Below, one piece after another: positions 15,520 through 24,639 of a stretch of DNA of 26,490 bases. Positions within the stretch are counted from its first letter, which is position 1; every line of letters starts with the position of its first letter. Below the pieces are notes generated by a model. It was given only the letters and a program-made list of their open reading frames with translations, had not been told where the DNA came from and searched no databases. Location of the stretch: positions 1 through 26,490 of the IMG/VR virus record IMGVR_UViG_3300022745_000132. One strand, written 5' to 3'. The translations under genes and the position numbers were made by a program. Source of the stretch: a virus.

Positions 15520-16377
15520 TTAGGCCAAGTCGTACACAGCGCCGTGAGCCTTGGGAGCGCGGCATTCCAATGTGTACTCGACAATCAGTTCGCGCTGCTC
15601 AGCATCACCAGTCTTGGCAAGCTCAACAGTGGTGAACGGACGGAGGTACGCAACAGCGAGCTTGTCCGATTGCAGAATGAAAACGTCGCGGGTACGTTGG
15701 AAGCGGTTAGGTACAACCTCCAGCGTGCCGAAGTCGCTAACGTAGTAGTCAACCGATGCGTAGAGCTTGGCATCTTCCGACTTGTCCATGCGGGTAGCGT
15801 TACCCGAGAAGGTAGAGAAGGTTTGCTTCGCAGCAGGGGCAACCATGATGGTGTCAGGCTCGCCACCAGCGGTGAAGATCTTTTGCAACACATCCTTGAC
15901 CTGTGCTTCAGTGAATGCGCGCGTCGTGCCATCGGTCTGTGCGGTGTTACCAGTGTAGGAAGCAAGCGTGTTGCTAGCGCCCACAGAGGTGTTATCAACG
16001 CACCAGCCAATCAGGCCACGCGAGGAACGCGGGGAAGTAGCCAACACAGCATTCTGCGTAAGACCATATTCCATGTCACGCTTGAGTTCCAGCGAAGCCA
16101 GCGAGAGCTGATAAGCCAGTTCGTCTTTGCGGCCAGCCGGGTTCATGGCTTGTTGAGTGCCGGACACCACCACGGTCTTGGTCGAGATCTGCGTGCGATT
16201 CGTCAGACGAGTCGTAACAGTCACAGCCTTGGCCGATGCGTTGTCACCCTCAACCTGGGCATTAGCCGCAGCAGATGCGAGGTCTTGGGTTTGCCATTCG
16301 TGCAGCGTGTTCGTTGCCTTGGTCTTGGCAGAGCGATTCAGCACAGGGGTGGCGGTCGGGCTGATACGGTAGATTGT
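15520..16377 (-). CDS. Major capsid protein, exon 2
   Basis: Encodes 285 residues that continue the protein begun at 17439-17374. The open frame alone would begin with a poor internal start (MLNRSAK), whereas the frame upstream of it reads TIYRISPTATPVLNR, the conserved start of SU10/DUF5309-type capsid proteins with the HK97 fold. Joined after intron removal the N-terminus is DLSD + TIYRISP, and the total is 307 residues, the normal length. Other family blocks are TNTLHEWQTQDLASAAANAQ, NRTQISTKTVVVSGTQQA, AGGEPDTIMVAPAAKQTFS and a C-terminal AYLRPFTTVELAKTGDAEQR. It forms the icosahedral shell. The stop is followed by a strong hairpin. Confidence 0.92.
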   Translation of the reverse strand, partial: TIYRISPTATPVLNRSAKTKATNTLHEWQTQDLASAAANAQVEGDNASAKAVTVTTRLTNRTQISTKTVVVSGTQQAMNPAGRKDELAYQLSLASLELKRDMEYGLTQNAVLATSPRSSRGLIGWCVDNTSVGASNTLASYTGNTAQTDGTTRAFTEAQVKDVLQKIFTAGGEPDTIMVAPAAKQTFSTFSGNATRMDKSEDAKLYASVDYYVSDFGTLEVVPNRFQRTRDVFILQSDKLAVAYLRPFTTVELAKTGDAEQRELIVEYTLECRAPKAHGAVYDLA

Positions 16378-17373
16378 CAGTGTGTTATCGGTAGGCTCTT
16401 TATCCTACCCTCTAGCACTTTCATGCTAGTTCAGACTATATCATCACGCTTTTGAAGCGTGCCGGGCACTCGTGGCGCTTTACTGTCCCTGTAGGACTCC
16501 ATGCGCTAGTCGTTGAACCTTCGGCCTATTGCTAGGTCGCTTGGCTGCTGATTGCCCAATCCTGATAGTTTTCAAACCGTTACGCCTGCAATTACTTGCT
16601 TCGCTTTGGTCTACCAGGCTCTAAGGGGTTTCCAGCAATTCACTCGGTTTTACTCGGACTCAATCTTCCAGTGATGCTTTTTGTAATGGCACTTTGGACA
16701 TAAAACTTCACTGTTATCCGGGTCGTATCTGCTCTCAGGAAACTTTGAGAACGATTTGACATGATGGACATGAAGTTTCACCCTAACCCCGCAGCATTCA
16801 CAAGTTCTGCCATCCTCTACCCCGCAGCATTCGCATTTATGGTTAGCTCTGATGAGTGAATTTTTCTTCCACTCTCGCGCCTCCCAGCTTCGCCTAGCTT
16901 GCAGGTTTTTAGCAGTTGCGCCGCCCTTCCAGTTCGGATTCTTTTCACCGTAAGCAACACGCGCAATCAGAGACTTCCTGATGTTTGCTTTGTGCTCATC
17001 GGTGAATACCCGTCCAGGTTTTAGGCGGTGATTCTTGTGTGCATCCAGTTCTACTCCGTGTTCCTTCAATCTATTGAACACGACAGTTTCACCAACTCCA
17101 AAGTGTTCAGCAATCTCTCGCATTGACTTTGTTTGGTACAACTCTTGCAAAACCTCTTTCGGAGGATCGAAAGCCCTTCGGCCACCGACCTTTCCTATCT
17201 TGATCCCATGCTCATGCAAACGCTTCCTGACTGTCTCAGGGTTCACGCCATGCATCTTGCCGATCTGTGCGCAAGAGTAGAACTGATAGAGCTTCTCAAG
17301 CTCTGATTTTGAAGGGTTAAATATTCTTTCCAATTAGTGCCCCGTAAACATCTACGGGACTATTATATCGTTA
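16378..17373 (-). ncRNA. Group I intron (T4 td-like, IA) inside the major capsid gene
   Basis: A 996-base self-splicing ribozyme intron. Core elements on the minus strand: P-like AATTGCTGGAAA (16640-16629), Q-like AATCAGCAGCCAAG, R GTTCAACGACTAG (16518-16506), S GATATAGTC (16442-16434). GACTA and TAGTC pair as P7. P8 is CACGCTT/AAGCGTG (16461-16445); P9 CTAGCA/TGCTAG (16429-16412) and P9.1 GGTAGG/CCTACC (16409-16390) follow. Exon 1 ends in GGAT, which pairs with intron GTCC (17360-17357) as P1 with the expected U-G at the 5' splice site; the intron ends in G at 16378. Without splicing, TAA directly after the exon stops translation at 22 residues. The HNH gene lies between P1 and the core. Type IA is judged by likeness to td. 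Confidence 0.93.
16650..17333 (-). CDS. HNH homing endonuclease in the group I intron
   Basis: A 227-residue intron-encoded protein that would cut intronless alleles of the capsid gene and so spread the intron. Domains in order: two helix-turn-helix units (about 9-42 with CAQIGKMHGVNPETVRKRL, and 60-94 with MREIAEHFGVGETVVFNRL), a NUMOD3-like DNA-contact segment (103-138, FTDEHKANIRKSL to GEKNPNWKGG), then an HNH domain with C167/C169/C170, C178/C180/C181, H190 and H191, N207, C212, C215, H216. It starts with TTG, with GGGG six bases upstream. Codon use is more A+T-rich than the surrounding phage genes, a sign of recent arrival. Its stop is 10 bases before the intron core. Confidence 0.92.
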   Translation of the reverse strand: MERIFNPSKSELEKLYQFYSCAQIGKMHGVNPETVRKRLHEHGIKIGKVGGRRAFDPPKEVLQELYQTKSMREIAEHFGVGETVVFNRLKEHGVELDAHKNHRLKPGRVFTDEHKANIRKSLIARVAYGEKNPNWKGGATAKNLQARRSWEAREWKKNSLIRANHKCECCGVEDGRTCECCGVRVKLHVHHVKSFSKFPESRYDPDNSEVLCPKCHYKKHHWKIESE

Positions 17374-17439
17374 ATCCGACAGATCTTCACGGTTGCCGAT
17401 TGCGGCAGTAGTGAGGTAGGTATTAGTAGGTGCGGTCAT
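17374..17439 (-). CDS. Major capsid protein, exon 1
   Basis: Twenty-two codons, MTAPTNTYLTTAAIGNREDL then SD, ending in GAT; the next codon is TAA in the intron. This N-terminus matches the start of SU10/DUF5309-type capsid proteins. GGAG lies six bases before the ATG and a GAGA hairpin stands just upstream. It is too short to be found as a gene on its own and joins 15520-16377 after splicing. Confidence 0.9.
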
Positions 17440-24167: not shown

Positions 24168-24379
24168 GGCTTCTCCCCATATTGCAGTTCCAATGCAAGC
24201 TGGCAGTAATGGATAACCTTCCTCAGATCATCAGACCCGTTTTTATCCTTGTGCCGTGCTGCATATTTTATGATATTGCCCTGAAAAAAGTCCAAATTAT
24301 TGGCGTGTATAAACTCGATTGGCTGTATTTTCATCTTGGCGTAATGTGAACCGCCATGCTGTGTATCTAGTGCGCTCAT
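24164..24379 (-). CDS. DUF3310 protein
   Basis: A 71-residue protein with the whole DUF3310 pattern: HGGSHYAKMKIQPIEFIHAN at residues 8-27, then LDFFQGNIIKYAARHKDKNG and DDLRKVIHYCQLALEL. This family is widespread in phages of Gram-negative and Gram-positive hosts and is sometimes labelled nucleotide kinase on weak grounds; its biochemical role is not settled. It lies among recombination genes and is coupled to both neighbours by ATGA overlaps. Confidence 0.92.
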   Translation of the reverse strand: MSALDTQHGGSHYAKMKIQPIEFIHANNLDFFQGNIIKYAARHKDKNGSDDLRKVIHYCQLALELQYGEKP

Positions 24380-24639
24380 GCGAATAGCCTTTCCAATGTT
24401 TGAGCCAGCAAATCAAGCTCGGTTACTTTCTTGATATTCATCATCGACTTGTCGCCGTGAATGCCTTTACTTCCAGTGTGGCAAGATGGGCAAAGCGGGA
24501 TTACCAGCCAATTGCTTGCACGCTGTGACATTCCCTGCCCTTCGCGTATGTGATGGATATGGGCGCCTTCCACGCCACATGTAGCGCATGGGAGTTGCGC
24601 AACCCTGTCCATGTGCTGTTTCATGGCCTTGGTCGTCAC
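24376..24639 (-). CDS. Ref-like HNH nuclease
   Basis: An 87-residue protein with paired cysteines C18/C21 (LPCATCG), the histidine cluster H27, H29, H30 (HIHHIREGQGMSQR), a central NWLVIPLC and C50/C53/H54 (CPSCH), plus H61 in KGIHGD. This is the compact pattern of the P1 Ref family, RecA-dependent HNH nucleases that stimulate recombination, and also near the DUF968 proteins of the nin region. It sits next to ninB and a resolvase-type nuclease, which supports a recombination role. Start at 24639 overlaps the upstream stop. Confidence 0.82.
   Translation of the reverse strand: MTTKAMKQHMDRVAQLPCATCGVEGAHIHHIREGQGMSQRASNWLVIPLCPSCHTGSKGIHGDKSMMNIKKVTELDLLAQTLERLFA

Follow-up and report, generated by a model that had tools for sequence, protein, structure and literature searches.

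An HNH-encoding, putatively homing group I intron at a recurrent insertion site in an SU10-type viral major capsid gene

How is a major capsid protein encoded when an in-frame stop codon follows directly after codon 22 of its gene and the rest of the protein resumes only 996 nt further on, and what is the DNA that lies in between? This arrangement is found on the minus strand of a virus sequence of 26,490 nt (IMG/VR record IMGVR_UViG_3300022745_000132), which is referred to here as the window. The answer that we favor, with a probability of about 0.93, is a mobile homing group I intron inserted behind codon 22 in a major capsid gene of the SU10 type, which would splice and home, judging from sequence comparisons. 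The basis of this reading is the insertion site, the empty sites of relatives, a covarying RNA fold, homologous HNH proteins and the horizontal movement of the intron core. The features of the locus are given below, in coordinates of the window.

17439-17374, minus strand: capsid exon 1, MTAPTNTYLTTAAIGNREDLSD; 66 nt, 22 codons, ending in CGGAT; in relatives, too, the intron follows this 22-residue exon
17373-16378, minus strand: group I intron; 996 nt, first codon an in-frame TAA, last base G
17360-17357, minus strand: internal guide sequence GUCC, pairing with exon GGAU (17377-17374), with U-G at the splice site, as P1
17356-17343, minus strand: P2 hairpin CGUA/UACG, predicted from the sequence
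17333-16650, minus strand: HNH protein of 227 aa, initiated at a TTG codon; two helix-turn-helix segments precede the HNH region, which has Cys pairs
16647-16641 with 16468-16462, minus strand: P3, from covariation
16637-16632 with 16551-16546, minus strand: P4, from covariation
Within the P3-P6 span 16647-16462, minus strand: P5 and P6, from covariation
16511-16507 with 16438-16434, minus strand: P7 pseudoknot GACUA/UAGUC, from covariation
16461-16445, minus strand: P8, from the Rfam match and covariation
16429-16412, minus strand: P9, from the Rfam match and covariation
About 16409-16390, minus strand: 3' hairpin GGUAGG...CCUACC, ahead of the terminal G, from covariation
16377-15520, minus strand: capsid exon 2, TIYRISP... 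to the stop; 858 nt including the stop

Joined, the two exons encode a protein of 307 aa that was identified by profile search as an SU10-type major capsid protein (PF17236), with 329.7 bits over practically the whole profile (positions 5-291 of 292), in agreement with the type assigned earlier from the letters of the DNA. A GTG-started open frame of 274 residues, beginning at MLNRSAK, also exists and could be taken for the true capsid protein, in which case exon 1 would be unrelated to it; we regard this as practically untenable, given that the frame scores lower than the joined protein (300 bits, profile positions 35-291), that the intron fold covaries, and that a search of viral contigs with the joined protein yielded intronless relatives that align over residues 1-306 in one piece (70-82% identity). 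Since these relatives are continuous over residues 1-306, the capsid protein does not start at MLNRSAK, a point that the sequence-only reading had proposed to settle by such an alignment; and since many of them match uninterrupted, absence of the intron is the usual condition. That reading had also warned that annotation from open frames alone would shorten the capsid protein to the 274-residue frame, as indeed it would, and its exon, intron and stop coordinates proved exact to the base (66 + 996 + 858 nt, for a 307-aa product). An intein was considered as well and dismissed, as an in-frame stop opens the insert.

With respect to the identity of the insert, the only Rfam match above the gathering score in the whole window was RF00028 (group I catalytic intron), at 16714-16412 on the minus strand, with 78.3 bits against a threshold of 50 and E 1.4e-18; the match lies within 16378-17373, the span that had been suggested for such a check. 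Among relatives, RF00028 exceeds the gathering score in 7 of 10 loci with such introns. For the fold analysis 16 intron cores were aligned, and RNAalifold drew 61 pairs, with compensatory changes in 41. P7 is absent from this drawing because it is a pseudoknot, and was added separately; in the resulting set of 66 pairs, 97.3% of cells are paired versus 76.8% when shuffled and 30-40% when slid, and 43 pairs show double-sided changes. The pseudoknot itself covaries, GACUA/UAGUC of the window being replaced by GAUCA/UGAUC in locus L097 and by GAGCA/UGCUC in L096. The core helices proposed from the letters, among them P7, P8 and P9, were thereby borne out, with P3-P9 and a further 3' hairpin backed by covariation in 16 family members, and the P3-P8 core with its P7 pseudoknot, which defines group I introns, is kept through compensatory change.

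At the intron ends, the exon U is paired to a guide G and the last intron base is G, as in group I introns. P1 is formed by GGAU and GUCC in most members; it is less clear in L071, L072, L095 and L098, without a clear GUCC guide, and in L091, which has GCUCC. The small intron of L245 (3864-4155), at the same capsid codon, follows an exon ending in CGAAT and has the guide GUUCG, and its pairing of exon GAAU with intron GUUC is a natural compensatory change of P1 across the splice site. Introns of subgroup IA (the td class) carry one or more extra hairpins, P7.1/P7.2, between P7 and P3. One covarying helix (helix 11 of the analysis) lies at that position here, which suggests subgroup IA.

The protein encoded within the intron matches the HNH domain PF01844 above the cut-off (E 2.1e-7), with helix-turn-helix matches upstream of it below the cut-off, and its best PHROG is PHROG 8446, an HNH endonuclease family; an HNH domain inside a mobile intron makes it a candidate homing endonuclease. 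The central proposal of the sequence-only reading, a major capsid gene split by a group I intron with an HNH protein encoded inside, is thus supported by both PF01844 and the RF00028 match of 78.3 bits. The TTG at which the window protein starts is matched in the alignment by the ATG that starts its L080 homologue (TTGGAAAGAATATTTAACCC versus ATGGAACGTAGATTCAACCC), and homologues are present in 14 related introns. No relative was found in the bacterial genome contigs searched with the protein, a PDB sequence search gave nothing at E 0.01, NCBIfam gave nothing above the cut-off, and in annotated phages the best tblastn matches were remote (below 60% identity, mostly partial). The P2 stem (17343-17356, minus strand) includes a G-rich stretch directly ahead of the start codon of the HNH gene, whose ribosome-binding site may thus be hidden by folding of the intron.

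The relatives fix the splice junction, because occupied and empty alleles share one exact codon. A scan of viral contigs, using as pattern the last codons of exon 1 plus a stop, detected 17 further contigs whose capsid gene is interrupted by an intron at this codon. Since a stop was part of the pattern, its presence after exon 1 is no independent finding in these contigs; however, TAA also opens the introns of L240, L245, L272, L276 and L289, which interrupt the same codon and were found via the core alone. All 17 contigs present, as far as each extends, exon 1, an intron and exon 2, with capsid identities to the window down to 35-39%; apart from three short ones, the introns encode an HNH homologue, and every 3' intron end that was located, that of L097 included, is a G directly before the codon for residue 23. 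Empty sites, in frame, were retrieved with a joined-site pattern in at least 120 contigs. Exon 1 ends in CGGAT in all stop-anchored members versus 18 of 151 distinct empty sites, a comparison in which the members are mutually related, so that a raw binomial figure does not serve as a p-value; among empty sites CCGAC, CCGAT, GCGAT and CGGAC are commoner. This bias may arise from the need of P1 for GGAU, a requirement of the endonuclease being also possible, and the P1 explanation is favored because L245, whose intron at this codon was recovered by the core scan, has CGAAT in place of CGGAT at the end of exon 1, together with a matching guide change.

Most members have an uninterrupted HNH reading frame, with identities reaching as low as about 40%; the gene is frameshifted in L090 and deleted from the introns of L071, L095 (342 nt) and L093 (255 nt), with the cores of L071 and L093 staying above the Rfam threshold. 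The introns of L071 (1685-2026, without HNH) and L072 (118-1110, with HNH) are closely similar, and the endonuclease frame seems to have been deleted from the former. Intact, frameshifted and deleted HNH genes correspond, as far as can be read from these alleles, to the homing cycle expected of such introns, with invasion, decay and loss. The lost or broken HNH genes would also fit an intron that splices and is no longer mobile, its HNH protein being a passenger under vertical inheritance, and the HNH tree, poorly resolved, is compatible with the vertical capsid clade and does not reject it (p 0.145). We nevertheless consider such an immobile intron quite unlikely. In the capsid tree the window groups with L080, L089, L072 and L099 (support 100/99), and this clade, defined on the capsid tree ahead of any core tree, is rejected by the intron-core data (AU p 4.4e-11, 58.7 log units), which place the window with L091, and L089 and L099 with L100, L101 and L088. 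Further, the window HNH protein retains its full length and shares 73-74% identity with its L100 counterpart, whereas the L100 capsid is only 61% identical. Because intron cores depart from the capsid phylogeny, the intron appears to move between capsid alleles, and horizontal movement of the core is well supported by these comparisons.

For the mobile homing intron that we favor, the transcript would fold into a ribozyme in which the guide GUCC pairs with GGAU of exon 1, and the intron would self-splice to leave a normal mRNA for the 307-residue capsid protein, while the stop right after exon 1 would keep ribosomes off the ribozyme, as a translation shield. The most likely role of the HNH protein is to introduce a cut or nick into the intronless capsid genes of co-infecting phages, at the codons for the conserved stretch GNREDL(S/T)D, and repair of the cut gene would copy the intron in, which constitutes homing. 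The gene that it would attack is structural and essential, with the site empty in at least 120 contigs, and cutting this gene might in itself reduce the yield of intronless co-infecting phages, so the protein could conceivably serve mainly as a weapon. A precedent is gp210 of PhiPA3, likewise an intron-encoded phage HNH enzyme, which is reported to act against PhiKZ and to lower the yield of the co-infecting phage; its targeting of another phage was demonstrated by experiment, and its host gene is other than the capsid gene (PMC11620839), whereas the window HNH is a putative endonuclease predicted from its sequence. As the main role this is unlikely in our view, given that homing alone already explains the pattern, and the low frequency of CGGAT (only 18 of the 151 empty sites) would restrict the target range should the enzyme require this motif.

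The unspliced message would give no full capsid protein, and a regulatory switch that holds back capsid synthesis until late infection might be read into the intron; this seems very improbable, as the large majority of related capsids are intronless with a patchy presence of the intron, and for phages LittleE and BAKA the introns are described as being spliced with high efficiency while late genes are expressed (PMC3706429). The idea, raised from the sequence, that splicing gates head assembly is logically possible and unsupported. Capsid protein is required in hundreds of copies, so splicing of a capsid intron must be fast and near complete.

A location in the major capsid gene had been considered unusual, a view that the published and database evidence largely contradicts. 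LittleE has a probable group I intron in its major capsid gene, with splicing demonstrated by RT-PCR and N-terminal sequencing, and a capsid intron of the lactococcal phage Tuc2009 is cited in the same paper (PMC3706429). The LittleE intron resembles that of the window in the U before the intron, the G at its end and the presence of a homing endonuclease frame; it differs in its gene family and site, being in the HK97-type capsid gene of a siphovirus, with the endonuclease frame on the opposite strand (PMC3706429). In Bacillus phage SP-15 (KT624200) the annotated capsid CDS consists of two joined segments that flank an endonuclease, and the core DNA is about 72% identical over half of the query, whereas the capsid is T4 gp23-like, the phage is large, and the endonuclease is annotated as Phage_endo_I-like. 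The T4 td intron is likewise a phage group I intron encoding an endonuclease, I-TevI, which is a GIY-YIG enzyme with its gene in the P6 loop, within the thymidylate synthase gene; the window differs in its HNH gene, located between P2 and P3, and in its capsid host gene. The description of the intron as td-like thus holds at most for the core class, which the P7-P3 helix suggests to be IA, and fails for the endonuclease and its position.

Furthermore, a core motif without capsid information was used to scan IMG/VR viral contigs, yielding at least 120 contigs, from which 117 downstream frames were tested. Among the matches listed, SU10_MCP was the most frequent family (17 of 117), ahead of endonuclease families, which makes the SU10 capsid the commonest identified host gene, and other capsid families among the matches listed were Phage_capsid_4 (5), Phage_capsid_2 (1) and Phage_cap_E (1), assignments with which PHROGs agrees. 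These counts speak for recurrence and not for enrichment, since the core scan is a non-random sample with gene abundance uncontrolled.

The virus had further been described as temperate. The genes scanned in the 26-kb record, which is probably a fragment, encode packaging, head, tail and lysis proteins, a Q-like antiterminator, NinB and RusA-like proteins, and no integrase or repressor is found among their family matches, which leaves that description without backing. Related capsids are also encoded in long contigs from the bacteria Variovorax and Pseudomonas, and relatives may therefore be prophages. Two more small HNH-like frames are present on the minus strand of the window, at 1597-1959 and at 24376-24639, the latter above the DUF968 cut-off.

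Interruptions of SU10 capsid genes were located, from tblastn edges, near codons 22, 24, 55, 80-112, 212, 237 and 280. Within a single SU10-type capsid gene of L253 (2318-4084, minus strand), four RF00028 matches lie above the threshold; its exons MAIIANTFTSFDAKGIREDLSNVI, YNIAPEETPFISN..., AAADASNQHIDG..., SDFGELSIVPNRF... and ...AEKRMILAEYGLIVKNEAASGAVYDL jointly span the SU10 capsid, the later intron ends being approximate. With four introns in one capsid gene, the L253 shell protein would need five exons joined. Group I matches in or beside SU10-type capsid genes were also found in L288 (534-1364, three), L312 (652-1255, two) and L326 (6074-6713, two), and the literature searched, of partial coverage, contained no mention of a four-intron capsid gene. 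With moderate confidence, we propose that small group I introns have the SU10-type capsid gene as a general target, with about six positions occupied across phages, and that the L253 gene, with four group I introns, would produce its shell protein from five exons.

These intron-rich SU10 capsid genes are a more interesting lead than the single intron of the window, which appears from its sequence to be an intact homing group I intron at a recurrent capsid site, capsid introns being already known. Where the capsid serves as a survey marker, such phages will be lost or misplaced, since annotation from open frames truncates the capsid protein. Finally, a recurrent capsid intron with many empty and occupied alleles provides a natural set for the study of site choice, spread and decay of homing introns.
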